This document shows positions 5,527 through 38,754 of a DNA stretch of 42,742 nt, piece after piece; within the stretch, counting starts at the first letter, position 1, and each line of letters opens with the position of its first letter. Position numbers and translations under genes: made by a program. A model generated the notes under the pieces. The model was not told where the DNA came from, did not search any database, and saw nothing but the letters and a program-made list of their open reading frames with translations. This DNA is from an uncultured Clostridia bacterium (GTDB lineage: Bacteria; Bacillota; Clostridia; TANB77; CAG-508): the NCBI GenBank assembly GCA_947631185.1, contig CANRKJ010000021.1:1-42742 (forward strand), given 5' to 3'.

Positions 5527-8500
5527 TTAAAATTGATAATAACTATTTGGATCAATATCATTTCCATATCCACTAGCATTTCTCATTTCAAAATGTAAAT
5601 GATGTCCAGTACTATTTCCGTGGTTAGGATCACTTTCAGCTCCACCTTCTAAACCAATTTTTTGTCCTTGTGTTACTTTTTGACCTACTTGTACATCAAT
5701 TTCTGACAAATGTGCATAGAAACTGTATATTGTTTCCCCATTAACAACATGTTTAATTTCTACACAATTTCCAAAACCGTTTTGTACTCCTGCAAATGTT
5801 ACTTCACCATCAGCTATAGCTAGTATTTCTGTATGCCAATCTCCTGATAAATCTATACCTGTATGTTTCTTATATTCACCTGTTGTTGGATGTACTCTAT
5901 ATCCATATGGTGATGTTATTACATAATTACATTTTATTGGTAATATAAGTTTATCTTCTGTTTTTTCCTCTTCATTATCTTGTACATTTTCTTCTGTTTC
6001 TGGATTAGATATTTCCTCTTGTTCTACTGACATTATTTGAACCTGATCAGTAGTTGCAATTTCTGATGCAACTACTGCATCTGGATCAACCCAAACTTCT
6101 GATTCTTCTTGTTTATCATAATTGTTTTTCAATATATTTCTATCTAATTCATTTATAGCACCATCCTCATTTAAATCGAAATGTCTATTATCATCAGTTA
6201 TTGTAGCTCCAAAGTTTTTATTCATTGCTACTAAATCATCTATTTCTATATATCCAGATGTAATTACATCACCACCTAGAATTTCTTTTGTTTCTAATAC
6301 TGCTCCTAATCCATCTGTTATATCAATATTTGTAATTCTATGTTTTAAATATCCTGGTTTTGTAAATACAACATCATATACTCCTGGGTCTAATACTAAT
6401 TCATATGATCCATCTGGATTTATTTCAACATTGTCAATAACTTCTCTAACCTCTGTAGTTTCATCTACTGCTGTCTCTGGTCTAATATCTGCTGTTTGAT
6501 AAACCATAACATTACCTGTGTATTGTTTAGAAACATTATTATAAATTAATTGTCCTGTAATAGTTACTTTCTTAAATAATGTTAATGTATATATTCTAAC
6601 AGTTCCATCTGGTGCTGTTACAGTAATTGTTAATACTGTTGTTGATAATGTAGGTACTTTGGTTGTAGCTATATGTTCATATGAAGGTTCTTCATCTATT
6701 TGAACTTTTGCTTTTGGATTTGTCGTTGTAATTACAACATCTGACATGTTTACATTCTTAACAACATATTCCATACTATCTAAATCTACATTATCATTAT
6801 TTACTGTAATACTTTCTATTGAAGCATCATTTGATATCCTCTTTAATGTGATATTATAAGTTTCCTTTGAACCATCTTGTGCTACTATTACTACTGGAAC
6901 TACAATAGTATTTTCTGATAATTTTAGAGGAACCTTTACTGTAGATTCATAAGTTTCTGGATAATCATCTCCAATTTTTACTTCTGCAAATTGGCTAGAT
7001 GCTCTTACATGTATTAAAGCTGTTGTATCATCTTGTTTTATTTCTGTTTCATATGGATAGTCTATTTCCACACCATTAACTTCAACTAAAGCAAGAGTTA
7101 CATCTGAAGATTTTTTAATTAATTTTAATGTATAATATTCTGTCTCACCCATTTCAGATGTTACTGAAATTTTTACTTCAGTCTCATCTTTTTCTATAGG
7201 TATATTATCTAATGCCCTTCCTTCTTCTGTTACAGTGCCTAATCCGATTATAGCATATGGGTTACTAGATATAACTTCTACTTTTGAAGTTGTCGCATTA
7301 CTATCAATATATGCTGTATAAGTTTTTGAAACCGCATCATAATTCTTACACTCAATATCATCTACAAACACTGAATTTATTTGTGTACTTGGAGAAACTT
7401 TCTTTATATTTAAAATATATTCTCTTTCAACTCCCTTTTTAGAAGTTACTGTAATTATTACTTTAGTATATTTTGATTTATCTAATGTAATAGTTTCTTC
7501 AGTCTCATTAACATTAACTTGTAATTCATTGATTTGAACTTCAGCATAAGCATTTGTTGTAATTGCTTTTACAAGAGCTTCTTCATTAGTTTCTAGAACT
7601 TCTGCTTCATATTCACCATCATCATTCATATGAGCTTCTTTATTATCAACATAAACTTCTTTTAATGTATTGTCATCAGATATTTTTACAAGTTTAATAT
7701 TGTATGTTTCTGAATCCCCATTTTCAGCTGTTATAGTATATTGAACGATTGTTTCATCTGATTCTTCATCTAAAGCTTGAGTGAATTTTAATAAGTTCTC
7801 TGCAGAATGATCTCCACTTTCTATTGTCGCATATAAATCAACTGCTTTAATTTCTATTTCAACATTCTGCTTACTTGCATCAATGAATCTAGTATATGTT
7901 TTAGATTCTTCATCATATTCTTCTGGTTTTAGATCTACATTATCTACTTTTACATATTGTATATCTTTATTATCAGATACCTGTTTTATCAATACTTTAT
8001 ATGTATTAGTAGGTGCACCTTCTTGAGCTATTACTGTAATTGTAATTTCTGTTGTTTTATTTTCAAGTTGGATTTCTCTTTCTGATACCCAAATATTTCC
8101 TGTCTCATCTCCAATTTTTACAGTAGCATATTCATTATTTGCTACAGCTCTTAAAGTAACTTCTGTTGTTTCTTCTGGGACCTCAATTATATAATCATAA
8201 GTTCTATCTTCTCCATCTTCATATTCTTCCGGCTCTACATATTTATCATCACTATATAAATCAAGTAAATCACAATCTGTAGATTTTTTGTGTAATTCAA
8301 TCTTATAAACAAGAGAACTATTATCTTCTGCAACTACTGTCAAATATACATAAGTTACATCATTTTCTGTAACTGCTGGATAACTTAAAGTTTCAGTATT
8401 TGTTGTATCATCAATTGATAATTTAGCATAAGGACTCTTAGCTTTTATATCAATAGTTGCATTTTCACTACTTGCTGAAATAAATGTTCTAAATGTATGA

Positions 8501-11500
8501 CTTTCAGCATCATATTCTTCTTCTGTTAATAATGTACCATTTACTTTTACATATTCTAATTCTTTATTATCAGAAATTATATTTATTGTTAACTCATAAT
8601 CTTGTTGAACATTTTCATCTTCTGCTATTACTTTAATTGGTACTTTAAATTCTCTACCTTTGCCTGTTGTATCAACATCATGTACAAACTCTCCTCTATC
8701 TGGTCCAAGTTCACCATCTATCATGATTTGAGCTTCTAAACTTGATGCTTCTACATCGACTGTAGCAGTCAATAAACTTTCTAGAACATCAGCTTTATAT
8801 TTACCATCTTCATCTGGTTCAATAACTTTACCATTTACTGATAATTTAATAATTGTTGTATCTTTTGATAATTTCTTTATTATTAATGTTCTAGTTTCAA
8901 CTGTACCATCTTCTGCCATTACTCTAATCTCAAATACATTTTCTTCACTAGCTGTACTTACTGATACCGTTGCTTGAGATTTTACATAATCTTCTGCATC
9001 TATTTTTACACTTGCTTCTGGGTCAGCTGTTTTTACATAAATTTCTGAATCATTAATTGTATCATCAATTATTACTGTATATGTTTTATTTTCTTCATCA
9101 TATTGTTCTTCTGTAACAACTTGTTTATTTACTTGTATTTCTTCTATATCAGTGTTATTAGATATTCTTTCAATTTGCAATTTGTATTCTTTCTTATCTA
9201 CACCGTTTTGTGCTGTTACAGTAAATGTAACCTCTGTAATCTTCTGATCTGATAAAGTATAATTAATTGTGCTCTCTCCTAATGATGGACCTCTTGAAGC
9301 AATATCAACATATGCTAGAGGACTTGTTGCTTCTACTCTTATTTCTGCATCAGATACTCCAGACTCTACAGTAATATAGTAAATTTCTTCATCATCTTTT
9401 TCTATTAAAATTGTATCTTTACCGTTTACTGTAACTGATTGAACACCTGTCTCTGCTGATTCTTTTACAATATATACTATATAATTTGCAATTGAACCAT
9501 CTTCAGCAGTTACTAAAACTCTAATTGTTTCAACATCTTTTTCCATCTTTATCATCTTAGTAACTTCATGAACTTTATCTTCATCATCATCTAGTCTAAT
9601 CATCGCACCTTCTTGTGCTGTTTCAATGTGAAGTTCTACTTCTTCTAAGTTAGCTTTAACATATGCAGTATAAACTCCATCTTCTTCATCTATAGTTTTT
9701 TTATCTACAGTAACAAGTTGTAATGAATTATTACTTGAAACTTTGTTTATATTTACAATATATGTCTGTTCTTTTCCATTTTGTGCTTTTACTTTTACTT
9801 CTACCTTTGTAGATGTTTTATCTTGCATATCTAAACTATATTGGTTAATTTCCTTTGTAAATGCATTTCCTGCAATATTTACATCTGCATAAGGGCTTGT
9901 AGTCTTAGCTTCCATATCATAAGCCTCATCTTGAAGTGGTACTTTTACATAATATTCTCCTGAATCATCATCATATATTGCAAATTGTTCTCCAACCTTT
10001 ACATAATCTAATTCTGTATCATCAGACTTCTTAATTATTCTTAAAATATACTCTACTGAATCCTCTTCTATTGGTGAACTTACTTTAATTTTTATAACTG
10101 TTTCTTCTTGTTCTGTATTAACACTAAATTTTAATGATCCTGTACCTATATCTTCTACATCTTTTACTGATATTAAAGTTTCAGCTGATACTGCTGTAGC
10201 AGTTACTTCAGATATATCAGCATCTGTTTCAATCCATGCAATATATTCTCCTGATTCTTCATTATATGTTGCACTTTCATTATTTACTATAACAGACTCT
10301 AATTTTAATATATATTTTTTAATAATTGTTAATGTATATTCTTTTTCAGTACCATTTTCTGCTCTTACTGTAATAATTACATTTGTTGGAGTTGATCCAC
10401 TTTGTAATTCTACTGTATGAGTAGTCTCATGTTTATCAAAATCATTGCCTTCTATCTTAACAAAAGCTTCATCATGAGTAGTTGTTGCAGTTAAGTTAAC
10501 TTGAGTCCAATCAATTGGTACTATCATTTGATATGTGTTTTCAGAAGTTTGAATTATTTGTTCATCATCTATTTGATCAGCTTTTATTGATAATAATGAA
10601 TTATCATCTGAATATCTCTTTATTATCAATTCATAAATTTCTTCAGTTCCATCTTCTGCAGTAATCTTGATTTCAACTATCTTTTCCTCTGAAGTTGTAT
10701 TTATAGTTTCAGTATTTATATGAAGTTTTTCTTTATTTCCATCAATAGAAACCATAGATTTATCATCAACAGCTTGAACCTCGACATTTGTTGATGTATT
10801 ATTTCCTATTACTGCTACATATTTTCCGTCTGATTCAAATATTTCATTTTCATCTACAAATACATGCAATATATCTGTATTATTAGACATCTTAGTTACA
10901 TTTAATAAATATGTGTCTATAGTTCCATCTTCTGCTTTTACTTTTATATTAAATGTTGTTGTATTACCTGTTAATGTTCCTATAATTGAATCATAGTTAC
11001 TTGTTCCATCATCTCTTTCAATACCAACAATTGCTAAGTTAGAATCTGCTAATGCCTCGATATTTACTTCTGTAGTTGAATTTGGTACTTTTACATAATA
11101 CTGTCCATCTTCAGCTACATCAATAATTGCTCCATCAACTTTTACATATGCAAGTTTTGTATTTGATTCTTGTACAATAATTTCTAATACATAAGATTCA
11201 TTTGTTCCATCTTGAGCAGTAATATTAATTGTTGCTGTTGTAATATTAGAATTTGTATTCTTTGAAACAGTTTGTGTAGTTGTACCTTTAGCAGAATCAT
11301 ATGTATTTATTCTTACATCTGCTAAAGAGTCTTCTGCAGTAGCTGTTACCATATATTCAGCTAAAGTTCCTGGAACTTTTACTTGATATTTATTAGTGTA
11401 TTCTACAAGAGATGCCTCATAACCATTTACTGAAATACTCTTTACTCTTGTATCATCTGGTAATTCTCTAATAATTAATTTATATGTTTTTAATGTTCCA

Positions 11501-29500: not shown

Positions 29501-32500
29501 CAAACTGTTCCATCAGCTTTTAATACTACTGTATAATTTTCACCCTGTTCTGATTGAGGTATTGTAATTGCATTTGGAACATCTCTTACTACATATACTA
29601 AACTTGTTGCTTTATATCCATATTTACTATCTGTAACTGTAATTGTTGTTTGTCCTTCTGAAACTCCTGTTACAAGTCCATTATTTACTGTTGCTACTTT
29701 TGGATTTGAACTTTCCCATTTTAAAGTTCCAGCTATTGGTGTTTTTGCATACATATTAAAGTTTTGTACAACATTTGTATTTAACTGAATTGAAGCTTTA
29801 CCTTTAATATAATTTACTCTATCAGTTATTTCTAAATAAGAAGTTTTCATTTCCTTAGCTGAATTAAGTTGTACTGTATTTTTACCAAATAGTTGAGATG
29901 TACTATTTCTTCCTAATCCATATACACTTCCATCTTCTCTTATTAAGTACTCATTTCCAACCTCATCATCATCTCTTGCACAAGAAACACTCAATTTTAC
30001 AAATTTTGCAGAAATATCACCACCATATTTTCCCAATACTTCAACAAATTTATGTTTATCAACTTTAGTATTATCGCCTAAATTACCTAAAACATTTAAA
30101 CCTGATGCATATACTTTATTATCAGCTGTTAAAACATAACTAACTGCACCAGCAGATCCAATATCAATAACATTTTCAACTAAAGTATTGTCATCAAAAT
30201 ATGGTTGTGTAGGAGAAGTTATAGAAGCTGTATCTCCATTTCCAAGTTGTCCATATTTATTCCAACCCCATGCATAAACTTTTCCATCTTCTGTTAAAGC
30301 TAATATATCATGAGAACCTGCAGAAATTTTTGCTACTTTATCAATTTCTGCTTTCTTTGGTATATGTGCATCTGCAGTAGATCCTGTTCCTGTTTGACCT
30401 TCTACTCCATCACCCCATACCCAAATAGTTCCTTCTTCTGTTAGTGCATAAGAATTATATAAACCTGTTTTTATATCAACTATATTTTGTAAATAACCAT
30501 GTCCAGTTGAATCTTTGACTTTAACTGGGAAATGTCTTACACTTAATGAATTATCACCTAATTGTCCATCCTTATTATATCCCCAACTATATACTTCTCC
30601 ATTTTTAGATAGAGCTAAACAGAAATCATTTCCTCTAGAAATTTTAATAATATCTTTTAACTGATTACCATTTTCATCTACAACATATACAGGTGTAGCT
30701 CTGAATTCATTAGTTCCATCTCCTAGGTTATAATTAGAATTATCTCCCCAAGATACAACTCTTCCATCTGAAAGCAATGCTGATGCACTATCCATACCTA
30801 CAGCAATATCAACAACATCTACTAATTTTCCGTTTCCATCTGGAGATAGTACTTGAACTGGTTCATTCTGAGTATCTGTATTTCCTGTTCCAAGTCTTCC
30901 ACTTGCACCATTACCCCAGCTCCAAACAGTTCCATCTTCTTTTAATGCAACTTCAAAATCCAAACCTGAACCTATTTTACTATCAGTAAATCCATAACTA
31001 TTAGTTACAGTAACATATACTGATTTATCTATATTATTATTTTTGTCATGTATTTTTATTATTGTACTTCCAATTCTCTTTCCTGATACAAGACCTGTAT
31101 TATCAACTGTTGCCACTTGATCATTTTCTGAAGTATATTGTAATGTGCCTAAAGAACTATTGTTATCAAAAACATTTAAACCATTAACAAATTCTATATC
31201 TATTTTTTTATTACTATCTTTTTGTAATGTAATACAAGAATCTGTTTTTAAGCTATTATCTCCAGCTCTTACTACATATTCATGATCTAAATTGCTATTA
31301 TTTCCAAGTTGACCTTCTAATCCTATTCCTGCAATCCAAATTGAACCATCTTCTAAAATATATCCAGAATTTGTTTTATTAGAAGAACCTTCAGTTCCAT
31401 ATAATACATTATTTAATTTTCCTGTACCTGTGCTATCTGGAACTTCTGTAAATATTAAAACTTTTTCAGGATTCTTACCTAAACCTAATTGCAATGAATC
31501 ATTTGCACCACAACTATATGCTTTTCCATCAGAAGTAATTGCAAATGATGTATTTGCTCCAGAATAAATACTTACTACTCCTGTAAAATCATCTAATTTA
31601 TCATTTTTTAATATTTTAGCTTTTAATGGACGTGTTGTATTAGTTGTAGTTGCATTTTGTGATAATTGTCCTGATGATCCAACACCAACTGCATATAAAT
31701 AGTTATCTTCATCAAGAGTCATTGCATGTGTATTACCTGCAGAAATATCATACACATCTCTGTTAATTCCATCATTTTCCTCACCTATACATTCTACAGG
31801 TGTATAAGAAATTGCAACATCTCCTTTACTTAGCCAACCATTTGTATTTAAACCAGTTGCTTGAGCAACTCCATCTCCTCTTAATAACATTGTATATGCT
31901 TCACCAGCTGAAATTTTAACAACATTAAATGTATCTGTAATTTTTATTGGATAATATTGTGAATCAGTTAAATAATTTCCTAAACGATAACTTCCTCCAT
32001 TACCCCAAGCATAAACATTTCCTTTTTTATCAAGAACAACACTATGATATTGTCCTGCTGAAACATCAATAATATTGCTTAAACTACCTTCTCCATCAGT
32101 ATTCAAAACTTTTACTGGATAATATGAGTCATCACTTGTACCTATACCTAATTGTCCATAATTATTATAACCCCAACTATATACTTCTCCATTTGTATTT
32201 ACAGCAAGCATATGATTTTTACCAGCTGAAATTCTTACTATATTATTTAAATAAGTTCCATCTTCCATTTTTACTTGATCAAATACTGATCTTGATGATG
32301 TTGTTCCATCTCCTAAAACACCTTTACTATTTAATCCAGTTGTCCAAACAGTTCCATCTGCCTTTAATACAGCTGTAAAATTATCTCCTTGTACAATCAT
32401 TGGTGATGTTATAATATTTGGTTTATTTGGAATTACATATATAGTCATTTGTGCTCTATATTGATGTAAATCATCATTTACTATAATTGTTGTAGTTCCA

Positions 32501-35500
32501 GCTTTTTTTGGTGTTATAACTGCAGAATTATTTACATTTCTAACTGATGCAACTTCTGTATTTGTACTTTTATAAGTTAGATTTCCAATAGCAGGAGTTT
32601 TTGCAAATGCATTTAAATTTTCTTCTACTCTAACATTTAATACTTTTTCTTGATTTAATTTTATATAAGCAATTTTTTCTTCAAATTCTAAATAACTTGG
32701 TGAAACATCTTCAACATATAATCTAGTTTTATACTTATTTGATAAACCATCTAATAATTGTCCATTTGTACATTTACCATTTGCTAAAATAGAACCATCT
32801 TCTTTTATCATATAATTTGTATAAGAAGATGAAGAATCACCTTGTAATTTAACTACTTTATCAGTTAAATGTAAATCTTTAGAATATCTTCTCTCCATTA
32901 TAGTTGGAGTAGTTTTAGTACTATTTGAGTTATCAGCTACTTCACCACTTGTATTTAATCCCCAAGCATAAACTATTCCTTTACTATCTAATGCATATCC
33001 ACTTTGGAAAACAGCACCAATATCAACTATTTCATCTGTACTTTCTAATTGTACTTTAACTGGTGTACTACGAGTATTTTTTGTTGTATCTCCTAAGCAA
33101 TATGTAGTATTATATCCCCATGCCCAAACTGTTCCATCATTTTTTAAAGCAATTGTTGCATCACTTTCTGAAACTATCTTTTTTACACCTTCTAAATTTT
33201 TAACTTTAGCAGGATGTTTTACAGTACTTGTTGCACCATTTCCTATTTGTCCTCTTGTACCTGCACCCCATGCTATAACAGTTCCTTCTTTTGAAAGTGC
33301 TGATACAGAATTAGCACTACAAGATACTTCTTTTATACCAGTTAAATACTCTTTTCCTGCTGTATCTAAAACCTGAACAGCATAACTATAATTAGTAGTA
33401 ATATTAATTCCTAATTGATAACTTGAATTAAGTCCCCATGCCCAAACTGTTCCATCTGCTTTTACAGCCACACCAAAATATTGTCCTGCAGAAATATCTA
33501 CAACACCTGATAATTTATTATTATTTAAATCTACAACATAAATTGGAACACTTGTATTATCACTTGTATTACCTAATTGACCATCATTATTTTGGCCCCA
33601 AGAAACCACCTCTCCTGATTTCAATAAAGCTAAATTATAATTTAATCCTGAAGCAATATCTATTACATCAGTTAAAGGATTTTTTCCATCTGGAGATAAT
33701 ACTTGAACTGGCTTTTCAGTAGAAGCCTCAAAAGTTCCATCTCCTAATTGACCATATGTATTATCACCCCATGCCCAAACTGTTCCATTATTTTTCAATA
33801 ATACTGTATGAGAATTTCCTGATACAACCTTTGAAATATTTGATAAATCTCTTTCACCAACAACTACTTGAACTTTAGTTTCTAAATTATTTTTTGTATC
33901 AACTACTTTTATACCAGTTGTTCCATTACTTACACCTGTAATCTCACCATCAGGGCTTACATTTGCAATTCCATCATCATCACTTGTATATGTTAAATCT
34001 CCTATACTTTGCAAATTATTATCTATATTTAAATTGAAGTTTGGTTTAAATTTTATATCAATTTTTTTATTTTCTCCAACTCCGATTTCATACATATCAT
34101 CAGTATAAATACTAGCATCTTCTATTTTTGTAATTAAATTAGTAGAAACATAAGTACCGTCACCATGTTGACCTGATGTACCTAATCCTGTTACACCAAC
34201 AGAACCATCATTAAATGCAAATCCATAAGTAGTTCCTTTTGAGTCTCCAAGTTTTAAAATACTTTCTATAGGTGCAGAATTTTCATTTTTAACCTGTGTA
34301 AATACTTTTACTGTCTTAGATGTTCCAATTGATAATTCTCCACCAGTATTTAAACCACTAGCATAAATTTCAGTTTGACCATCAGCTTTCTTTACATTAA
34401 TAAAAACTGATGATGGACCTGATCCAATATCTACTATTTCTCCTTCAATATCTCCACCAAGTGTTAAATTAGTAGCTTTACTAAGTACAGTAGGTGTTGT
34501 AACACCAAATTGACCACTTGAATTTATACCCCAAGCTACAGCTGTTTTATCTTCTTTTAGACCAATTATATGATTTACACCAGAATCTATTCTTACAATT
34601 CCTTTTAAAATTTCTTCACTATTTGCATCAATAGCTTCTACAAGCTCTGCTCTAGTAGTTGTAGTAGTACCATCAGCTAATTGTCCACTACTATTTAATC
34701 CAGCTCCCCAAACAGTTCCATCTCCTTTTAAAATCCAAGATGTATCTGTTCCTCCTCTTGCTTGTATAACATTATATGAATCATGCATTTTTGTAGGATA
34801 TGTAATTGTTGATGTACTATTTATTCCAAGTGCATGATTTCCTGCATTACCCCAACCAAACACTTCTCCATCGCTAGTTACAGCTAAACTGAAATCTATT
34901 CCACATGCAATATCAACGATTTTATCAATATATCCACTTCCATCTTCATTATTTACTTTAACAGCATATCTTGAAATAGTATTTGAACCAATACCTAATT
35001 GACCACTTGAATTTTGTCCCCAAGCCCAAACTGTTCCATCATCCTTTAAAGCAATAACATGTTGTGCACCAACAGATATCTTTCTAATACCAGTTAAATA
35101 CTCATTAGAACTTATTTTTACTTGTGTTGGAATATTAACTGCTATTGTAGACCCATTTCCAAGTTCTCCAACAGATGAAGCTCCAGATGTCCAAACTGTT
35201 CCATCTTCTTTTAGATAAGCAGTAAATGTTGTTCCACTTTCTACTACTGGAATTGCTGTAGCTTTTGATGTTACGACATTTATAATAGATTCTGCAACAT
35301 ATCCCAAATCTTTTATTTCTGCTATAATCGTTACTTGACCTCTAGAAACTGCTGTTACAAGTCCATTATTCTCTACAGTAGCAATATCTGTATTTGAAGA
35401 ACGATATGTAACATTACTCAAAGGCACAATATAATTCTTAGTGCTAAATGCATTATTAAAACTTGGCGTTAATTGTATATTTTTACCAACTTCTACAAAT

Positions 35501-37047
35501 GCTTGATTATTATCTAATCTCAAATATTCTTCATCTAGTTTTGTAGCAAAAAATGTATATGCAGAACGCTCACTCATTAACTTATTTGAAGAAGAAACAC
35601 CACTTCCATACAAAAATCCATTTTTATCTATCATAATATTTGAATTAGTGTATTGACCTTCTTGTAAACTTTCTATATTACCTAAAATTTGATTTCCAAC
35701 TTTTACTACAGGAGTTGCTACTACTTTGTTAGCTACAGTATAGTCACCTATTTGTCCATATGTATTTAATCCCCAGCCATAAACATTTCCACTAGAATCT
35801 AAAGCAAAGCTAGTTTCATTATTTGAGGCTATATCAACAATATTTCCAATAGGATTATTTGCTCCTAGTAAAACTTGTTGAGGAAAATTCTTTCTATAAC
35901 TTGCATTTGAACCATTAGTTGATGATGTATTAATACCTAAATTTCCAGAGCGATTTAATCCCCAACTCCAAACATTACCATAACTATCTAATGCAATACA
36001 TTGATTTTGTCCAGCATCAACTTTTTCAATATCTGTCAAATCAGATACTTTTGTTGGAACATATTTACTCAATAATTCATTATTACCAATTTGTCCATTT
36101 GTACCAAGTCCCCAGTTATAAACTGTTCCATCTTTCATTAAAGCAGAGCTAAATGTTCCACCACCAGAAACCTGTTTTACACCATTAAAATCACTAAGAT
36201 TTCCTTCTTCATCTAAAGTTTGAACTTTTACTGCATATATTCTCTTATATGCATCGCTTTTTGTCGAAGTTGAAGCGACATTAATACCCAATTGTCCATA
36301 TGTATTTAATCCCCAGCTCCAAACACTACCATCTTCAGAAACAGCTAACATGTGACAATCACCAGCAGAAATATTAACTATATTTGACAAACGATCTCCA
36401 TTTTCATCAACAACATAAACTGGCAACAATGCAGTTTCTGTTGTATTATTACCTAATTGTCCATATGTATTATCACCCCAAGCTAATACTGCTCCACCGT
36501 TTGTAAGAGCATAAGCAGATAATCTACCTGCTGTAATTTGTTTGATATTGTTCAATTCTCCATCACCTGTTACATTTAATACAGGTGTAGGATTTTGCGT
36601 ACTTCCATCTATGGTATTATTACCTAATTGACCATTTTGGTTATCACCCCAAGCTAATACAGACCCATTTTCTTTCAAAACGATTGCAAAGTTTTCGCCT
36701 GATGCAACTTGAGATTTTGTTTTATTATTAAGGGCATCCAAAGAAGCAGTAGCATTTATTGGTGTTACTGCATTATTAGCAAAAGTTGAAGATACTTCAC
36801 TAATTTCATTTGTTTTTAAATTTGACTCTTCAGTGTTTTCATAGTCATTTGTGGCAATTTCCTCATTTTTTTCAACTTCCAAAAATTGTTCATCACTCAC
36901 AAATTCTTTATTTTCTAATTCAAATCTTTGAACCATTCCGTTTTTATCTTTAAACACAGTTGATACACAAAACATTGCGAGTATCACTGCTGTTATTAAA
37001 AACATTCTCTTTCTCATTTTTCTCTTTAACTTTTTACTAAACTTCAT
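5527..37047 (-). CDS. Giant secreted RCC1/Big_2/cadherin-like/dockerin/M23 peptidase protein (about 10,506 aa)
   Basis: One open frame of 31.5 kb encodes a multidomain surface protein. Order (numbering from the 37047 ATG): basic segment and hydrophobic helix (MFLITAVILAMFCVSTVF, about 15-32), acidic linker, 17 modules of seven RCC1 blades plus a Big_2 domain (about 112-7955), 23 cadherin-like beta-sandwich repeats (about 7956-10160), a carboxypeptidase-regulatory-like beta domain (about 10160-10256), a dockerin-like pair (about 10257-10312), an acidic linker, and an M23/LytM endopeptidase (about 10368-10506). M23 enzymes cut peptide cross-links of peptidoglycan. The first in-frame ATG is 37065, but I prefer 37047: AAGGTAGGG lies 6 nt before it, and MKFSKKLKRKMRKRM then aligns with MKVSKKYKTKMMKRL of the downstream paralogue. 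There is no LPxTG or SLH signal, so anchoring is probably N-terminal or through the repeats. The frame has no interruption, so it is apparently under selection. The natural role, such as adhesion, wall remodelling or contact-dependent lysis, is unknown. Confidence 0.95.
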   Translation of the reverse strand: MKFSKKLKRKMRKRMFLITAVILAMFCVSTVFKDKNGMVQRFELENKEFVSDEQFLEVEKNEEIATNDYENTEESNLKTNEISEVSSTFANNAVTPINATASLDALNNKTKSQVASGENFAIVLKENGSVLAWGDNQNGQLGNNTIDGSTQNPTPVLNVTGDGELNNIKQITAGRLSAYALTNGGAVLAWGDNTYGQLGNNTTETALLPVYVVDENGDRLSNIVNISAGDCHMLAVSEDGSVWSWGLNTYGQLGINVASTSTKSDAYKRIYAVKVQTLDEEGNLSDFNGVKQVSGGGTFSSALMKDGTVYNWGLGTNGQIGNNELLSKYVPTKVSDLTDIEKVDAGQNQCIALDSYGNVWSWGLNRSGNLGINTSSTNGSNASYRKNFPQQVLLGANNPIGNIVDIASNNETSFALDSSGNVYGWGLNTYGQIGDYTVANKVVATPVVKVGNQILGNIESLQEGQYTNSNIMIDKNGFLYGSGVSSSNKLMSERSAYTFFATKLDEEYLRLDNNQAFVEVGKNIQLTPSFNNAFSTKNYIVPLSNVTYRSSNTDIATVENNGLVTAVSRGQVTIIAEIKDLGYVAESIINVVTSKATAIPVVESGTTFTAYLKEDGTVWTSGASSVGELGNGSTIAVNIPTQVKISSNEYLTGIRKISVGAQHVIALKDDGTVWAWGQNSSGQLGIGSNTISRYAVKVNNEDGSGYIDKIVDIACGIDFSLAVTSDGEVFGWGNAGNHALGINSTSTITYPTKMHDSYNVIQARGGTDTSWILKGDGTVWGAGLNSSGQLADGTTTTTRAELVEAIDANSEEILKGIVRIDSGVNHIIGLKEDKTAVAWGINSSGQFGVTTPTVLSKATNLTLGGDIEGEIVDIGSGPSSVFINVKKADGQTEIYASGLNTGGELSIGTSKTVKVFTQVKNENSAPIESILKLGDSKGTTYGFAFNDGSVGVTGLGTSGQHGDGTYVSTNLITKIEDASIYTDDMYEIGVGENKKIDIKFKPNFNLNIDNNLQSIGDLTYTSDDDGIANVSPDGEITGVSNGTTGIKVVDTKNNLETKVQVVVGERDLSNISKVVSGNSHTVLLKNNGTVWAWGDNTYGQLGDGTFEASTEKPVQVLSPDGKNPLTDVIDIASGLNYNLALLKSGEVVSWGQNNDGQLGNTSDNTSVPIYVVDLNNNKLSGVVDISAGQYFGVAVKADGTVWAWGLNSSYQLGINITTNYSYAVQVLDTAGKEYLTGIKEVSCSANSVSALSKEGTVIAWGAGTRGQIGNGATSTVKHPAKVKNLEGVKKIVSESDATIALKNDGTVWAWGYNTTYCLGDTTKNTRSTPVKVQLESTDEIVDIGAVFQSGYALDSKGIVYAWGLNTSGEVADNSNSTKTTPTIMERRYSKDLHLTDKVVKLQGDSSSSYTNYMIKEDGSILANGKCTNGQLLDGLSNKYKTRLYVEDVSPSYLEFEEKIAYIKLNQEKVLNVRVEENLNAFAKTPAIGNLTYKSTNTEVASVRNVNNSAVITPKKAGTTTIIVNDDLHQYRAQMTIYVIPNKPNIITSPMIVQGDNFTAVLKADGTVWTTGLNSKGVLGDGTTSSRSVFDQVKMEDGTYLNNIVRISAGKNHMLAVNTNGEVYSWGYNNYGQLGIGTSDDSYYPVKVLNTDGEGSLSNIIDVSAGQYHSVVLDKKGNVYAWGNGGSYRLGNYLTDSQYYPIKITDTFNVVKISAGEAYTMLLRGDGVAQATGLNTNGWLSKGDVAISYTPVECIGEENDGINRDVYDISAGNTHAMTLDEDNYLYAVGVGSSGQLSQNATTTNTTRPLKAKILKNDKLDDFTGVVSIYSGANTSFAITSDGKAYSCGANDSLQLGLGKNPEKVLIFTEVPDSTGTGKLNNVLYGTEGSSNKTNSGYILEDGSIWIAGIGLEGQLGNNSNLDHEYVVRAGDNSLKTDSCITLQKDSNKKIDIEFVNGLNVFDNNSSLGTLQYTSENDQVATVDNTGLVSGKRIGSTIIKIHDKNNNIDKSVYVTVTNSYGFTDSKIGSGLDFEVALKEDGTVWSWGNGASGRLGTGNTDTQNEPVQVLSPDGNGKLVDVVDIAVGMDSASALLSDGRVVSWGDNSNYNLGDGTNEFRATPVYVVDENGNQLKDIIKISRGNDFCLALSKNGEVYSWGYNKDGQLGDNSLSVRHFPVKVKDSTGHGYLQNIVDIKTGLYNSYALTEEGTIWVWGDGVEGQTGTGSTADAHIPKKAEIDKVAKISAGSHDILALTEDGKVYAWGWNKYGQLGNGDTASITSPTQPYFDDNTLVENVIDIGSAGAVSYVLTADNKVYASGLNVLGNLGDNTKVDKHKFVEVLGKYGGDISAKFVKLSVSCARDDDEVGNEYLIREDGSVYGLGRNSTSQLFGKNTVQLNSAKEMKTSYLEITDRVNYIKGKASIQLNTNVVQNFNMYAKTPIAGTLKWESSNPKVATVNNGLVTGVSEGQTTITVTDSKYGYKATSLVYVVRDVPNAITIPQSEQGENYTVVLKADGTVWAVGANNVGQCGLGYTSTYESILKQVMINSTTPLTNIVKISLGIDHNLALTNDGRVYAWGSNDDGQLGNNTNIESNYAREILNEYGTAPVTDIIDIGAGSSHSTLLTKSGDVYSCGNNTYGQLGDGTNNISNKIVKMAEMQNVVQISDEYYNTMMLCGDSTVWSVGYNTHGELGIGTASSSSQKFVRQVMNYQDPGVLHNITQIASGGYHCVALDSSKQAYAWGNGKDGQIGIGSVVSNNVRPVLIMDSDGMNGATGIAKVGASERSTFLLTDTNDVYATGENSKSQLAQKDNINDLINISKLYKEVYAGEDDAFIDGVINVPNSIGNINNTTLVKADGKVYVSGTGEHGQIGNNRFENVTVYTKMGVSKLIPEEEKIVLTVGQEHQLKTLISQGFNVYEDEVDKVDNIVYTSAIPSIAEVTAEGYVKAHSVGTTKITIEDKTNLWSATVFVEVVGNAEDKVQVQISSGETVSAMLKSDGTVLTWGTNNYGELGVGDFENHSGEQKVHNLENDNILSDVIQISVGANYVTALKNDGKVVAWGNNEYGQLGDKSNVNKSSPTYVLDSEGNPITDVVKISCGRVHTTMLKSDGTVWVCGNNGNGQLGQNNRTNSNYAVQVKDTTGKGYLYDISDITTLANTTLAVTNSGELYGWGYNAHGQIGNETRVSSSPYAVSLPKKSPNIKNISKIAGGYYSAMAILKDGTLYSWGLNRYGTLGIGVMNSSSSSSNYFKLQPQRVKLDETTFLDEVDDIIDISFANETAYALTKSGKLYGWGANEAGAIGNNTAKNSEYAKEIKSYYGEEFTEKIIALNSNKVFSINMFITEDGTLYGNGKRNGTAKGKILLSDRSSILTTVEPIKPDYIQIENRAIYIKQGDSRQLNVKVMERLNAYSSHIKLGNLKWTSSNEDVVKVENGMITSVGLGEATITVRDLENGYKTQAIVYSIQNKDNAIAVPDISQGDKFTVILKADGSVWATGNNSKGQLGDGTTVNRSKPVRVKVDSKTYLSDIVKISAGTEHVLALSRTGEVYAWGYNNVGQLGNDSTSTSTYAKKVLDSSGEKEITNIVDVSAGNEFSLLLTDEGYVYGFGRNAYGQLGTLNNSNKYIPTQMDNVYNAVKVEADAESSIIQIGNGMVESTGSNYYGTLGINATSRGSTAASQGRNYTSSVINPTCDGVLRDVVKISGGWVQNIALTSNGIAYVWGRNNVGQLGLSQSTSYYTAVPVAITLSEESGYSEDDIIDIGTSGYRTLIKVQNKNKEKTVLIAGQNNVGQLGTGDKVDSSVFVPIKDSKNEGIANDLDILANDAKSTNNSGYIDIDGDVWTVGSNESGQIGDDTNYNRNNIVQIGEISLIADEVIFTMRPEETKKISTQIEDSFNVYIKDLEMNKLTYNSMDESIATVSEDGVVKAKNIGSTIIKITDSTRDIQTAVLVKVIKNQEDIKYEPMVTGGDNHSVALRGNGTVWTWGDNTYGQLGNNTAIASEDPVQVLNTNADGVLDDVQMIASGANHVLALKGDGTVWAWGYNNHGQLGDNSQITKYTPVQVWGEDGQDYLSDIVYISANGDYSVAVNKRGEVYSWGYNGNGQLGDGTKVEKYIPVRVKANLSGVIDIACGYGHVVAVKADGSVWSWGLNNDYQLCDGTKSNKTIPVKATLSDGSYISDAIGVSTTNYSTNILKSDGTVIAVGLGTSGQLGNNQNVTKQYPEQVVNYDEVGNLSNIISIKSGANTTYALTRDGKVYSWGTSTYGELGNSYVGKNSSIPVQVKEVSGDNNLENILYIGTGTSHALVVENTGYVAVWGLNNKKQLGDPSGANYSTPVYIGFKVIATPKSVNLKVGEEQNISISMSSFNLFKDIDHSEREVTLSSLNPNVATVTPDGVIKGESMGVTKVIAQDTISSKITTIDVTVLDEDSAVTPKIVSGLNHSVALKADGTVWTWGYNGYGQLGDGTKTNSYVPKKIDIDDVVDVAAGSYFSLALKKDGTVWAWGYNDKGQLGQGDTKAYTVPTKVKGIDGTGYLTGVVKISASRHQWVGILNTSEVVGCGWNEYGALGDGTAKNRTTPVYMLNSNGIGNVTGVKDIAIGQCDTFILKEDGTVWGTGHNCNGQLGIKSKTTVRTIREIKGSDGTGTLNNIIDISTNSWYMLALDKDGHVWVSGTNKYGLGIGSTLTTTLPKMISNYVDSGLGSNSDSDPSEPRSEYLENIVSIEGGYYSSYAIDRDGHVYSWGYNKYGQLANGDQSNKNKPVQVLNENGDALLDNVMLATSSGSHTTFVKYDGTVWTVGYNANGELGDDDNINSKQVICISKAKLNVEPKVLKFSSRFGEKKKIDVSVTAGFNLLTNHVELGENEFSTLNEDVVAVDQEGMTISSGPGTTYIKVKNKDFTTAVKAIVPQDPGKTWPKIIGGAKHFVALKANGTVWTWGYNGNGQLGLGDKTTRTEPTQTGMDDVFDIAVGANFTAVLKNDGTVWVTGQNNYGQLGQNNTTTSTSFIPVYDESGTKYLSDVVAITAGDYFMAVLKSDGTVYAWGQNNYGQLGDSTTSTRKLPTRVRKVNNIIDITAGSNFLIMLDSDGTVWGTVCNTNGQLGIKNWTSSKFPVKMKDSSGNDDISDIVQIAAGVNYTILLNKEGKIYSTGYNKYGQLSQGDNTRRNLPVVALDENKQEITDVKYISARQYTASMIKKDGSAYTVGYNGYGQAGNGSVSQNKYYSKVLDTDLNNPFEKGILSGNANNTTAFADEMGRVYTAGYNGNGEIGDGSNSQSKHLILISKSYIEVDEPIVIMNKIGETHKIKAKMNMGFNILYDDLEGATYSYKSLNPNIASVDTKGEITAVKYGDARILVTNNETQSSAIIIVKILREGDIANPKVESGTDFSVALKSDGTVWAWGNNSRGQLGLGDTVNRKEPTKVKIEGVVDIVCGTQHVLYLKSDGTVWATGLNNYGQLGNNTTKNSLEPVQVQNLDKIIRISAGANHSLALNSNGTVYSWGYNAYGQLGDETTTRRSVPVQARRLDNIKEISAGHHGSMALDVDGNVYVFGYNKSGQLGLQTKENVSSPTHLQLEQPILDIDMGTNYSVLVSEKGNVFTFGVNGSGQLGNGTSKNSDKPVQVVLDEQQTPLENIEEVSAGVSHVLAKTSEGNVYAWGLDNTYQFGDESTKNKLYPVQVRYSGNGDEFEDVLTVSAGSTHSVIVKEDGTVWTAGKNNYGQLGDKSSIQRPAWVCISDITIDVDSHSITIKEGEEYETNAKLSVGFNLLYDNMTASDFVYVSKKEGVASVNTDGVITGVSRGKTKVGITETNTQKTVFVDVYVIKESDVTFPQVVTTEYTTVALKNDGTVWTWGLNDHGQLGLGDKENRVNPTKVNVDNIVKIAVSSNHTLLLAKDGTVWAFGDNTNGQLGQKDNTQYLAPVKVKDSTGTDVLKDIVDISTAYNVSIAVDSNGNVYTWGLNNYGQLGINSKKTQTLPVQVEGLPRIIKVEGGNRSVYALSAEGKVYSWGYNSNGQLGDGTNTTRIVPVLVEELSGVIDISASTTEQVLALDDNAHVWGWGYATLGALTDIGGSIPRQIQGMDDTRIKDISSISSGYYAGLAITDSENVLAWGTGGYGQLGNGTTDSRSVPDYVLEGIDTKLSDIFIAEMGKYYSIYAKTDGTVWATGYNAYGQLGNSSTETIKIPENISKEYLSVKELDMVFNTIGDSQPIHAEYSAGFNLFNDLKPADITYESEDSNIAQVDQSGNVTAIGIGKTYIDVVAGISKRRVEINVLKPEEVAPMDLQAGEKHTIGLKTNGTLWAFGDDTYGQLGDGRVKSVSVTEPQEVIIPEGVRFTKIAVGKNHTLALDTEGNVYGFGANTNGQLGLGNRINTGNIEKISGLENIVKIIADKNISMAIDKDGKLYIWGQGYTNKPARADFYMKAIDATSNLVLAENGTVWSLSDFSHKISGLTNIVEIASGESHDLALTADGIVYSFGNNSYGQLGSDDTQEYSIPVRIQNIPLAESIKAGQYNSYILTREGEVYSFGRNNSSSLGLDLTDEFISSPRLVESKQVQRISAGQNYAVYVKDDGSAYSWGLNSAGQLGHGDKENRNIPTLIGSVKIIKQDDWVTINEGGSYTINATLNNTFNLRQDILESSGFSYKTMNQKVAKANGSEITGVKNGITTAVIEHKDYGKSANISIEVLPEGRQSVIDVKNGNDFAVALKADGTIWTWGANQFGQLGLANNDNCNEPQKIELEERVKQIAVGDYHTVVLLESGNVITCGYNENGQLGNNTTSNTNTFEEVVDEFGEKVNNIARVSAKDNTTYLLDYNGEVYAFGNGFKKVATKIECEENITEIFGNYGITKDAEVIDLLDNEKIENLNDIIKVSAGENHTLFLTSNGTVYAMGQNANGQCGNGKKVTSVTPTQVNSSSGTSILTNVKDISAGDNFSMAVLDDGSVYTWGSNDNKKLGSEQQNDQILPRKNNFTSNGIIVSAGANVAMYVKENGKVYAWGKGDNGTLGNGKNKDSVEPVLVGAEDVVVNKNHIVLPMGQTDSLNAQVESFNLIKSVVTDEITYNSNDKSIVRVNSVTGDITPVAEGTTSITVSEDGSDNISIVQISVIREGTTVKPAVATVDSTQVVLKADGTVWTYGKNNYGELGDGTSDPDDELKQVSFGQNVKIVEIVAGENHVLALDENGTVWAWGRNNYYQLGSKITGSKKPVKVNLDEKIVKISAGYNQSFAITENNELYAWGLNSNGELGLGNYTEKITPTKVQKLKNVLDVKSGKTHTIIITTKGKVMATGNNSYGSLTGTEYKRNMFDETDVDDTIAYISSGEYHNLALSTGRKLYVWGYNAYGQLGIDSVHTITESQRITSIRDIQEISAGKSNSSVLTKDGTIYNTGLNNLGQLGNGTTDHSTVFTKLDTISDVITQASGNTYMMAIKEDGSVWAWGDYYHGLQDIRTKSKSYVPVKIGKEEFSVEDNDIAVNLDGTKQIEVIDEREFNVFKDMTQNSGYTYQSLNTDVADVSETGVVSGLKIGTTWVKVTDNSTGEVQIVTVRVVERDNNTAPIVGAGNDYAVVLKGDGSIWSFGYNSNGELGLSKLVSYNVPEPINVLKTYTDLVVGNRFALVLRNDGTVWSFGDNTYGQLGIGNRTLSRSPIMVNSLSNVKKISAGSKHAVALTEYGEVYTWGSNDSGQLGLGNTSTKDIPVRITIPETKIIDVYAGDKYTVLLDSKGRIYVFGNTDSILGKSYKTPTLVNNVYDVAKVACGKDLIVLTEDGDVVKVGATNTPIYEDDAVDIVSKNGNYMILNNQGQVYGFGENKNGQFGLQNKSTIDEPKLVSGESTVISIGTGANDTYYIEDSGLVYGCGLNTYGALGNSTNEDSDVYTLVGTQDFEVAPNPVLMSENDVQEFQVKSERFNVLKQDLRDINDFDWKIDDTAIAQVEGNAKIRALSKGETKLVVTENDTSAQKEVVVVVEEMDAQRINKIQVNGIDAELVGTRKYEVTIASDAKNARLLVTTNIDSDEISIDDGDNWAPKGTLIATIELPNNPTEITIKVKAENGTTFDYTLTIYKQSDIAELEHLDVNGINATPISSTEYTVVLNDDSEIDIGTVNAIAKSASAKVSIDGNVANVHQDQKEVSLEDSLVKTVPIQVIAESGKVVNYVLTIYKQSGINDLELLTVDGNKATKNNYTEYSYLVDKDATEVDVRAVALYSSAEVNINGLGEETKESTRKITLNKVGDTIVKILVSAEGIDQEYTLTIKRIVDGSSIGAIYVNGKEVTQNEDGDYETFIASLDQTAEVQVVPAFATSDVSILNYGSAIGTYTVDVDTPDLVNTYTIIISDPDDMEQTATYRLLIKKPSTDNTLKEIIIENDQMSVKATKDAKSNTYRAKIDKKYTDMTVTAIANYDLSEVEILPNDVYKLSKDSLDISFTGDDYTLTIKVKSQDGEEETYTLILERMSEDIRLEYVKVNDIYAELSKDEPDTYVATLETKEDDVHVIAKTVDDNAQVAINNNVYEISMVEKNISMDSKSVTAYINVKAENGTLKTYKLIIRELPDDTRVKSISVNGYEASLVEYTNKYQVKVPGTLAEYMVTATAEDSLADVRINTYDSAKGTTTQTVSKNTNSNITTATINITAQDGTNESYVLEIIVQESNTKLAYVKVDGAIIDVAEDGQYYVKVPNSTTEVNIEALADSNLAIVGIERDDGTSNYDSIIGTLTGNTTTFNIKVKAEDGTIDTYLLNVTKMSNNTDILHVFVDENEIFESDGKYVAVIGNNTSTNVEVQAVDDKSMVSIDGNKEKLHINTETINTTSEEKIVEIKITAEDGTEEIYELIIKRYSDDNSLLSIKADQIDDEQIIQTSENTYQMIVPIDWTQVNLTATTTHDEAFVKIEGNDFDKHETTHTVELQSGSTPTNVIITVRAENGTEKEYTLTIIKKYILKLESVIVNNESATYNEESGEYIAWIETDADISEVTATAVSAETLISVKDVEDIGTGSLKFSVNTEQEETVIKIKVSSPIEEDSVEYILRIIKKSDDTELDYVKVGEQFAIYDDDSGEYYVKVPLQDEAYDMEAKTTSPYADVNIAGNAFTKEINQYSLDMQDKTSTKVEVKVKAQNGKEQTYIVNINKVSSNNSLQLVTVDKKTIDEEDGVYTAYVKANLEEVELHIETAQEGAMIRLDDDEDKVHEVTKMIKMEKDVETIRVLVTAEDGSIANYIVYIVKESAETGVQSVTVNGKDTILIEKDDEEIYYITVESGVSDAEIRVEATSPLAYVDIASRGPSLGESTINYTLSDQKITEVTFTVTAQNGVDKKEYKLQIERISNNTDIEEIQVNKQVVTEEQYDEENKTYTVIIDDTINDSEIYVKTADPEASVKIDAEDYVKSQATVSVSTASEENVFEIRVMAEDGTVETRTLIIKKLSKDTTIIKLSVNGKVIEPDEDGKYKADVLESLLTATVDVEASSLEAQIMIDGELGPDRGEFVHDVDTTGKGREFKVPIKVIAEDENVQQDYELTINIISDNKELEYVKVNGTLLTEEEYDAESHTFRTFISASSENATIDIKAKSPYAKLSIDDTTNTETLSYPAVTENDVTYVYLTVVAEDNSSLVYKIELHKKSTDCDLLDLYSDDKYVEPEEYEDGEDRTYDYIIEVPEETTEVTLRAVANNEYATVKIGDETGNIWVSEREIQLENKTTEITITVIAQEGAPTNTYKVLIKQVSDNKDIQYVKVDNVDLKPEEYDEESKTYTRFIDASKQNVEIEIKAVDLYATIESGDHSAENLLKFTQALDEESDETIVQYTITAENGDSETYNIKLVKISDDNTLKEVYVDNKEAHMNDDGEYEAEVLETNEEALVKAITTNAYAEVQINELQVNVNETEETITLDKSKYTKVIITVTSKKGVEREYILNIKKVSPSTQINSVFVDDIECKNYDAVSKTYTAYIDSNATTSKVEVISSNPYAIIGLGTVTEEGRALDNIPIEKDETEVKISVTSEMGETEYYTLKLIKKSSDVTLALVEVNGVEIDYPYETEIKQDDTTALIHVRASSQFAEVKIGDDYPETYESTVKVPLKLSENTIVVPVVIVAQDGSKETYNITLKRISNDASIESITVNNDNVDLDSMEYVVKNVNMSDVVITTTNPKAKVQIDEEPSYEHIATTKVPTLSTTVLTITVTAPDGTVRIYTLTLFKKVTITGQLIYNNVSKQYTGNVMVYQTADIRPETAVDETTEVREVIDNVEINPDGSYELVLDPGVYDVVFTKPGYLKHRITNIDITDGLGAVLETKEILGGDVITSGYIEIDDLVAMNKNFGATITDDNRHFDLNEDGAINELDRNILKNNYDKQEESEVWVDPDAVVASEIATTDQVQIMSVEQEEISNPETEENVQDNEEEKTEDKLILPIKCNYVITSPYGYRVHPTTGEYKKHTGIDLSGDWHTEILAIADGEVTFAGVQNGFGNCVEIKHVVNGETIYSFYAHLSEIDVQVGQKVTQGQKIGLEGGAESDPNHGNSTGHHLHFEMRNASGYGNDIDPNSYYQF
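5530..5946 (-). other. M23 (LytM-type) zinc metallopeptidase domain of the giant protein
   Basis: The last 139 residues begin LPIKCNYVITSPYGYR, the usual entry to an M23 domain. The motif HTGID gives metal ligands H10395 and D10399, and GHHLHFE gives the HxH pair H10483/H10485 (numbering from 37047). All residues expected for an active Gly-Gly or peptidoglycan cross-link endopeptidase are present. It is the extreme C-terminal domain of a 10,500-residue protein whose membrane anchor is at the other end. Confidence 0.93.
6112..6279 (-). other. Dockerin-like calcium-binding pair in the giant protein
   Basis: Two EF-hand-like loops with helices: GDVITSGYIEIDDLVAMNKN and, about 20 residues on, FDLNEDGAINELDRNILKNN. 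The second loop keeps calcium ligands D, N, D and D at positions 1, 3, 5 and 12. The first has lost the usual ligands at 3 and 5 (I and S). The preceding segment (about 6280-6571; GSYELVLDPGVYDVVFTKPG) looks like a carboxypeptidase-regulatory or prealbumin-like beta fold, a common partner of such dockerins. In non-cellulosomal proteins this pair may stabilise a neighbouring domain or bind a cohesin; no cohesin is visible in this window. Confidence 0.75.
6571..13186 (-). repeat. Array of 23 cadherin-like beta-sandwich repeats in the giant protein
   Basis: Units of about 95 residues follow the pattern L-x-x-V-x-VNG, Y-x-V-x-I, A-x-V-x-I, then an ENGT-x-x-x-YTLTI-like end and the joint K-x-SDD. 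Unit starts include INKIQVNG, LEHLDVNG, LELLTVDG, LEYVKVND, VKSISVNG, LAYVKVDG, LEYVKVNG and IESITVNN. This matches the cadherin-like beta-sandwich family of bacterial surface proteins. It probably forms a stiff stalk between the RCC1 modules and the C-terminal dockerin and peptidase. The repeats have diverged well beyond recent duplication. Confidence 0.85.
13195..36712 (-). repeat. 17 modules of seven RCC1 blades plus one Big_2 domain
   Basis: I read through all modules and find seven RCC1-type blades in each, 119 in total, each group closed by a Big_2 Ig-like domain. Approximate Big_2 positions: 35250-35530, 33845-34115, 32430-32700, 30985-31235, 29585-29850, 28115-28390, 26660-26930, 25195-25460, 23785-24045, 22345-22610, 20945-21215, 19590-19865, 18245-18510, 17020-17285, 15770-16005, 14450-14705 and 13195-13460. 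Typical blade: DGTVWAWGxNxYGQLGxG, then a P-x-x-V strand and an ISAG-x-x-H/F turn. Blade 7 is recognisably different in every module, which suggests the whole propeller is the duplication unit. Modules 14, 15 and 17 each have two worn-down middle blades yet still count to seven. Confidence 0.88.
25190..36712 (-). repeat. Four copies of a two-propeller super-repeat (modules 1-8)
   Basis: Modules 1, 3, 5 and 7 share features absent from 2, 4, 6 and 8, and the reverse. Odd modules have PVYVVDENGN-like text after blade 2, a YLEI...YIK entry to Big_2, NAFAKTP-like text and a YGYKA end. Even modules have a YAVKVLN-like strand after blade 2, KKIDIxF before Big_2 and an IGTTxIKIxD core. The super-unit is about 2.85-2.92 kb. 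Modules 9-17 do not clearly continue the alternation. The array therefore grew by duplication of a pair of propellers. Confidence 0.75.
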
Positions 37048-37053
37048 TGGTTT

Positions 37054-37062
37054 CCCTACCTT
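37054..37062 (-). promoter_or_regulatory. Ribosome binding site that decides the giant gene's start
   Basis: AAGGTAGGG lies 6 nt upstream of the ATG at 37047. It would fall inside the coding region if translation began at 37065, which has only an A-rich leader before it. The homology of MKFSKKLKRK with the paralogue's MKVSKKYKTK also points to 37047. Confidence 0.7.
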
Positions 37063-37085
37063 CATTTTTTTTATTTATATATATA

Positions 37086-37380: not shown

Positions 37381-37592
37381 TATCTGTATTGGCGTTCATT
37401 GAACGCCCGCAATATTGTGTATAATCCTTATTATTTAAATCATCTGTATGGGCGCCCATTGGGCGCCCGCAATATTGTGTATAATCCTTATTATTTATAT
37501 CATCTGTAGGGGCGCTCATTGGGCGCCCGCAATATTGTGTATAATCCTTATTATTTAAATCATCTGTATGGGCGCTCATTGGGCGCCCACAA
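37381..37592. repeat. 60-bp tandem repeat array carrying GC-rich palindromes
   Basis: Units start at 37381, 37441, 37501 and 37561 (the last partial), with an exact 60-bp period. Each carries a 28-bp palindromic core (37385-37412, 37445-37472, 37505-37532, 37565-37592) and a conserved AT-rich filler (AATATTGTGTATAATCCTTA). Because 60 is a multiple of three, the array reads as a repetitive open frame on the minus strand; I treat that frame as an artefact. The cores differ in their stem arms but keep pairing. Confidence 0.9.
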
Positions 37593-38643: not shown

Positions 38644-38655
38644 ATTCTCTTTTTT

Positions 38656-38741: not shown

Positions 38742-38754
38742 TGGTTTTACTCAT

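Follow-up and report, generated by a model that had tools for sequence, protein, structure and literature searches.

The window, i.e. the whole stretch of 42,742 nucleotides analysed here, comes from a bacterium that its relatives place among the Clostridia and carries one giant gene, the N-terminal part of a second one and the gene of a Big_3-repeat protein; all coding features given for it lie on the minus strand. The first giant occupies a genuine open frame (5527..37065) of 10512 amino acids counted from the first ATG, with a predicted mass of ~1.14 MDa. A preliminary description of this DNA had set the start at 37047 (~10,500 residues). The frame was confirmed, and translation start at 37047, giving ~10,506 amino acids, is favoured because this seventh codon is preceded by the Shine-Dalgarno-like AAGGTAGGG and an equivalent start is present in the orthologues of two related genomes (G057 and G058). 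In the frame of a third orthologue (G056) a matching start was sought and none was seen. The chain begins with a charged and hydrophobic segment, read from the sequence as a putative export segment (36946..37047, MKFSKKLKRKMRKRMFLITAVILAMF...). This is followed by 17 propeller plus Ig-like units, 23 cadherin-like domains, a carboxypeptidase-regulatory-like domain, a dockerin and an M23 peptidase, so that the gene product is apparently a secreted protein. The last quarter of the giant, with the cadherin-like, dockerin and M23 domains, was absent from the preliminary description. TRF reported ten tandem-repeat rows in the window, none of which spans modules, tRNA and Rfam searches (gathering threshold) of the window gave no match, and NCBIfam returned no family for the first 1100 amino acids of the giant.

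Blades were counted with an HMM of 56 positions, derived from the giant itself and searched at full sensitivity. It gave 118 matches in 17 groups, seven in 16 of the groups and six in group 15, in which the fourth blade was not detected. The great majority (116/118) score above 3 bits. The weakest are the last blade of group 1 (-1.5 bits) and the fourth of group 14 (0.7 bits), and the noise level, taken as the best match in one shuffle, is -0.8 bits. These two blades were counted because of their position, the one of group 14 also because of a profile comparison. Thus, two of the 16 groups of seven rest on a match of at most 1 bit, and the remaining group has a conserved minimal blade, which together bear out the 119 blades (17 x 7) counted by eye in the preliminary description. 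In addition, PF00415 and PF25390 are found above the curated Pfam cut-off at many places along the array. The propellers, on average ~375 residues long, lie at 35581..36777 (propeller 1), 34150..35301 (2), 32740..33897 (3), 31291..32466 (4), 29872..31044 (5), 28432..29619 (6), 26998..28164 (7, last blade 4 bits), 25498..26706 (8), 24085..25245 (9), 22639..23835 (10), 21256..22389 (11), 19903..21003 (12), 18547..19653 (13), 17314..18291 (14), 16060..17067 (15), 14764..15813 (16) and 13492..14499 (17, fifth blade 7 bits).

Propeller 12 was predicted as a closed propeller, and the model of propeller 14, for which a closed fold is predicted as well, aligns with UVR8 from end to end. In the models the ring is closed by a velcro strand, as in RCC1-like propellers. 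These predictions support the earlier proposal that each group forms a complete closed propeller. Seven blades per group would persist because a propeller closes only as a complete ring.

The groups are separated by linkers of 82-97 residues, which had been described as a Big_2 domain after every group. The Pfam Big_2 cut-off is passed in only 12 of the 17, namely linkers 1 (35263..35580, 47.3 bits), 2 (33859..34149, 28.8 bits), 4 (31006..31290, 36.3 bits), 5 (29581..29871, 40.6 bits), 6 (28126..28431, 27.9 bits), 8 (25207..25497, 28.6 bits), 11 (20965..21255, 28.4 bits), 12 (19615..19902, 23.7 bits), 13 (18253..18546, 32.4 bits), 15 (15775..16059, 27.0 bits), 16 (14461..14763, 32.9 bits) and 17 (13195..13491, 27.6 bits). 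Three stay below it, linkers 3 (32428..32739, 15.8 bits), 7 (26668..26997, 21.1 bits) and 9 (23797..24084, 22.0 bits), and two have no Pfam Big_2 match, linkers 10 (22351..22638) and 14 (17029..17313). However, each linker matches a model built from the other 16 with 45-81 bits (17/17), linker 10 with 54 and linker 14 with 55 bits. Judged by these scores the 17 linkers are one homologous Ig-like family.

Some blades had been called badly worn. This does not hold for the short fourth blades of propellers 14 (17722..17841) and 15 (16486..16605), which recur at the same place in the three orthologues and in the tandem paralogue. With hhalign, profiles of five homologues were compared with a profile of 105 strong blades. 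The fourth blade of propeller 14 gave 85% over only 10 columns (20 column shuffles, at most 1.7) and that of propeller 15 gave 66% over 27 columns (20 column shuffles, at most 5.4), while an Ig control gave 0.3. Because of this conservation and the profile matches both blades are read as minimal and not as decayed, and their loss by decay is ruled out by the conservation in three orthologues and the paralogue. Decay of the fifth blade of propeller 17, which is longer in the paralogue, is unlikely, as hhalign gave 85% over 34 columns from four sequences. It could still be argued that some groups, notably group 15, are six-bladed or open, so that the giant would not consist of seven-bladed propellers throughout. 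The HMM indeed counts six in group 15 and in five further groups at the relatives' positions 14 and 15, 26 of 108 groups of the wider family count six, and in the predicted structure that includes propellers 14 and 15 (model 2) 43 residues of propeller 15 are left unfolded. However, these unfolded residues are conserved in five homologues and reach 66% with the blade profile against at most 5.4 in 20 shuffles, and the comparable propeller 14 aligns to UVR8 over its full length. We therefore consider six-bladed or open groups unlikely.

Behind the array, 23 tandem cadherin-like beta-sandwich domains (6559..13182; PF12733, 292.5 bits; counted with an own model) are followed by a carboxypeptidase-regulatory-like domain below the Pfam cut-off (6301..6447) and a dockerin type I domain (6124..6273). 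The latter scores 22.2-26.1 bits depending on the stretch scanned, i.e. 26.1 and 23.7 bits above and, for a longer stretch, 22.2 bits just below the Dockerin_1 cut-off of 22.9. The C-terminal M23 (LytM-like) peptidase (5551..5868; PF01551, 87 bits) is related to solved LytM-type endopeptidases and contains the motifs HTGID, YAHL and HHLHFE, which we take to have zinc-ligand roles. The H-x3-D and H-x-H motifs are intact in all four aligned sequences (both giants of the window, G056 and G058). In an NCBIfam search the C-terminus matched eight M23 families, all far below their cut-offs. An M23-like C-terminus is also found in several other array-bearing relatives; three long frames stop before M23.

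The source genome holds eight further M23 places, eight sortase places and two small cohesin proteins (L138 899-1705 and L139 1329-2234) of 268 and 301 residues. Both have signal-like N-termini and C-terminal ends that look membrane-like or suited to the wall, and one carries a PDTG sortase-like motif. Cohesins were found in all 12 relatives checked, including four same-genus genomes without a match to the RCC1-like domain, and are therefore not a specific partner of the giant. Near-identical small dockerin-bearing, membrane-like proteins, both cut by contig ends, were seen at L139 1-546 and L140 714-1265.

The second giant is represented in the window by its N-terminal part (1..4902), with an export-like segment, three full groups of seven by the blade HMM (877-2055, 2320-3432 and 3688-4797, one blade of the third with 0.2 bits) and a fourth group cut by the contig end. 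At the end of contig C18 of the source genome a 6957-residue frame, open at its start, contains eight complete groups as well as a single blade of a cut one, 29 cadherin-like domains and an M23 end. The two pieces fit as one gene of ~12 propellers, in which about two blades would be missing between the contigs. The last seven modules of this second giant pair one-to-one with modules 11-17 of the first (37-44%), which suggests that the two giants descend from one duplication. The array of G388 corresponds to that of the second giant, with 52-66% to S06-S12. A dockerin match reaching E 0.001 was not found in the second giant.

The Big_3-repeat protein is encoded upstream of the first giant (39009..42740). 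It has a membrane-like segment near the C-terminus, recognised by eye. Its conserved tail of ~100 residues matches no Pfam family, and NCBIfam gave no family for the protein. Its last 199 residues have matches in six of the eight genomes searched, the source genome included. In G058, G293, G372 and G217 the match lies upstream of and close to the gene of the giant array, whereas G056 has it on a different contig and no match was found in G345 and G057. A 147-amino-acid ORF (37719-38162, minus strand) separates the Big_3 gene from that of the giant; it has a charged start, one hydrophobic segment and no Pfam match. Repeated GC-rich imperfect palindromes of the GGGCGCTCATTGGGCGCCC type, in units of ~60 bases (37382-37592 and 38631-38771), stand out from the AT-rich intergenic sequence upstream of the giant.

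Relatives were found by a scan of one genome per species, and the figures rest on the best 80 matches, among which long arrays occur on three contigs. G056 (MAG of an uncultured Clostridia bacterium, Lapin-008 bin82) has a frame of 11453 residues with 19 groups, G058 one of 10460 residues with 17 groups and G057 one of 8112 residues with 17 groups, which breaks off early in the cadherin-like part. On contig C18 of G057 (1-4607) the cadherin-like part is spread over frames that begin with the same odd string, which is probably due to an error in assembly or sequencing. By matching places and frame lengths we put the three genomes in the same family as the source genome and in other genera. Exactly seven matches were counted in 73 of the 81 complete groups of the five arrays (the two giants of the window and the three orthologues), nine of the 73 depending on a match of at most 1 bit. 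All six groups with six matches correspond in position to 14 or 15, and two groups reach eight through matches of ~0 bits or less.

The order of the modules is conserved as well. All 17 modules of the first giant are matched best by the module in the same position, both in G058 (45-60%) and in G057 (42-59%). In G056 this holds for modules 1-4, while modules 5-17 correspond to 7-19 (48-63% over all 17), and for this reason modules 5 and 6 of G056 are read as an extra inserted pair. Within the first giant the modules are 29% identical on average, with 37% for the highest pair. In addition, 23 cadherin-like domains were found in each of the first giant, G058 and G056, the frames in which they could be counted. 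The mean identity of modules 1-8 against that of modules 9-17 is 49.8/55.8% to G058, 46.6/54.3% to G057 and 51.6/58.6% to G056, and this lower conservation of the N-terminal modules fits an exposed tip. Blade positions outside the strands vary even among orthologues, and this speaks against a closely conserved site for ligands in the loops. The propellers and their order are kept in related bacteria, which suggests that each propeller has its own job.

An assembly artefact or collapse is unlikely as origin of the array, since modules within the protein share so little identity and MAGs of two other species gave the same number. The contamination of the source MAG is 6.5%. Wrong binning of its contig C18 was considered and rejected, as a RimO-like gene on it (named by eye) has its best outside match in the same genus (75%); four of its five best matches are same-genus (68-75%), which speaks for C18 and does not by itself bear on C21. 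In the same-genus genome G012 (contig C2, 23470-24003) the RimO-like match lies inside an open frame of 24179 amino acids, which may be a run of N.

To trace how the array grew, single blades were compared. The best-matching blade comes from the same propeller for 6 of 117 scorable blades and has the same blade number for 44 of them. Identity across modules is 0.331 between blades at the same position and 0.293 between blades at different positions, the former exceeding all 200 permutations (maximum 0.303). That the duplication unit was the whole module and not the single blade is strongly supported by these comparisons, and whole-module copying together with closure of the fold would explain the seven in every group. 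In the N-terminal half modules 1, 3, 5 and 7 are alike (31-37%), as are modules 2, 4, 6 and 8 (30-37%), with 24-30% across the two sets, which points to a two-propeller unit. When C-terminal orders were compared in more distant frames (groups with fewer than five matches were skipped), the last propellers best matched 14-15-16-17 in five of seven frames, those of G345, G217, G388, G207 and G223 (contig C22), and a shorter core was found in G251 (15-16-17) and G293 (16-17). A C-terminal core of four propellers may have been the starting point, to which whole modules would have been added on the N-terminal side, with the array lengthening partly by two-propeller steps.

The wider family was analysed on stretches from ten further genomes, one of which (G223) is apparently the same genome as G056. 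The longer of these frames have ~4 to 10 groups and then cadherin-like domains, and many end dockerin-like and M23-like; over the longer frames of the whole family the number of groups ranges from ~4 to 19. With the same HMM, 59 of 108 uncut groups in 21 frames count seven, 26 count six and 23 other numbers, the last mostly one or two matches, strays included, and one with 12. Only in the close set does the regularity of seven show clearly. The irregular counts of the wider family may be due to divergent blades that escaped the HMM and to broken frames.

In a survey of other bacteria, several frames of which are cut by locus ends, 45 of 57 frames among those listed (L034-L110) have 7, 14, 21 or 28 blades; eight blades were counted in seven frames and 15, 16, 20, 26 and 51 in one each. 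The survey thus also leans towards multiples of seven. This count omits 13 of the 70 listed rows, namely the three giant relatives L031-L033, L019 and L025 from the source genome itself, and eight near-relative frames (L013, L015, L017, L018, L023, L024, L029 and L030). These eight have 8 to 13 matches each and do not fit multiples of seven, so either they speak against a universal rule of seven or the HMM may have missed blades in them. At L017, L018, L015 and overlapping loci (same order) the frames have ~950-975 amino acids and 11 or 12 RCC1 matches. L085 (Clostridia MAG contig SUG219) contains a frame of 4124 amino acids, open at both ends, with 51 RCC1 blades and seven in five of nine groups. 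L084, L088 and L046 are single frames of 28 blades that lack wide spacers, apparently four consecutive propellers. Of 385 genomes sampled from the order, 38 exceed the cut-off of the RCC1-like domain model. Among 56 genomes searched the source genome alone is above this cut-off and eight match at E 0.001. As none of 35 same-genus relatives passes the domain cut-off, the array is dispensable in the genus.

Taken together, we regard it as somewhat probable that the giant is a secreted surface protein with a wall-held C-terminus and an outward string of distinct binding propellers, each closed by seven blades, which grew module by module. The N-terminal segment would export the chain, in keeping with its domains of extracellular type. 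The dockerin/M23 end would then hold the chain at the cell wall, for which the wall-anchored cohesin proteins of the genome are a possible dock. The propellers would point outward, a row of binding platforms that are not interchangeable and to which other cells, glycans or matrix would bind. A wall-docked chain with outward propellers would be the simplest arrangement compatible with the sequence. A more specific version, in which 17 distinct platforms kept across genera form an addressable, cohesin-docked surface array with a four-propeller base and a faster-changing tip built in two-propeller steps, is tentative and in our view rather doubtful.

The propellers as a binding array are the preferred reading over three others. 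The protein could be a tethered or targeted cell-wall hydrolase, in which the M23 domain does the work on the own wall during growth or on neighbouring cells and the propellers and sandwich domains serve as arm or targeting device. This would account for the M23 domain in which both giants of the window, G056 and G058 end and whose motifs are intact, for its relation to solved LytM-type endopeptidases and for the M23-like ends of several array-bearing relatives. However, with eight other M23 places in the genome the giant is not needed as a general hydrolase, and 17 diverse propellers in our judgement far exceed the need of a spacer, which makes a primary role as hydrolase unlikely. A structural coat or S-layer-like scaffold, whose propellers pack on each other or on neighbouring cells and have no outside ligand, would go well with the great length, the regular architecture, the variable non-strand positions and the several array frames per genome of some relatives. 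Positional counterparts in other genera are closer (42-63%), however, than modules of the same protein (29% on average, 37% at most), and a passive coat would not need such a separate identity of each position; we hold this explanation to be quite improbable. Even less credible, although the range of group numbers within one family (~4 to 19 in the longer frames) and the patchy presence speak for it, is a neutral by-product in which tandem modules pile up and their number has no function. It sits badly with the group numbers of three other species, 17 in two of them and 17+2 in the remaining one, in arrays kept open at ~50% divergence, and with the 23 cadherin-like domains in all three proteins in which they could be counted.

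When large domains form tandem arrays, their number often varies and the copies become homogenised. Here, 17 propellers keep their number and their individual identity at ~50% divergence across genera, and the array is therefore a natural test of what fixes the blade number of a propeller and of the amplification of whole propellers. That a bacterium with a 2 Mb genome spends ~30 kb on a single protein, with a second such gene adjoining, puts the use of such proteins to the test.

The eukaryotic RCC1-like propellers, as in RCC1, UVR8, RPGR and the RLDs of HERC1/HERC2, occur as one to three propellers per protein and are intracellular. In difference to these, the giant described here joins 17 propellers in a single chain, which is apparently secreted and has an Ig-like domain between one propeller and the next. 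No bacterial giant protein with strings of RCC1 propellers was found in the titles and abstract starts of the open-access literature, a search outside which subscription papers and preprints mostly fall. A string of 17-19 distinct RCC1 propellers in conserved order was not seen in that search; the fold, bacterial extracellular RCC1 proteins (in the available parts of PMC3447821) and giant surface proteins (in those of PMC12863079) are already known. The available sections of PMC11573180, on huge proteins, mention neither RCC1 nor propellers, and those of PMC3482391 contain nothing on an architecture of RCC1 propeller strings. For Apilactobacillus kunkeei, the accessible text of PMC12863079 describes five consecutive genes, Giant1-5, whose products are extracellular, 3,000-8,000 residues long and built with internal repeats. 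In that text the repeats are mostly helical and partly sheet, the C-terminus carries DUF5776 and neither propeller nor RCC1 is mentioned; in the giant described here DUF5776 had no Pfam match in the C-terminal 2499 and 369 amino acids. Giant ORFs are shared with the Omnitrophota, for which the available portion of PMC10066038 reports noncellulosomal dockerins and one dockerin-bearing giant ORF proposed as adhesin. These giants have other domains, most of them poorly conserved, and that portion does not mention a propeller. The proteins of Bifidobacterium asteroides PRL2011 are closer in so far as they are bacterial, extracellular and contain RCC1 domains; in the parts of PMC3447821 at hand a figure legend gives an LPXTG-type signal and no distinct function is assigned. 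They are encoded by 19 separate near-identical gene copies with another companion domain, whereas the giant here is one array of distinct propellers. Propeller amplification itself is shared with the highly repetitive beta-propellers surveyed in PMC9218822, where, in the sections available, RCC1/BLIP-II is the third group, mostly bacterial, and the highest count is 47 near-identical blades, whose folding is left unresolved. In that set, as far as those sections go, blades were amplified within a propeller, whereas here 119 divergent blades form 17 groups and whole modules appear to have been amplified.
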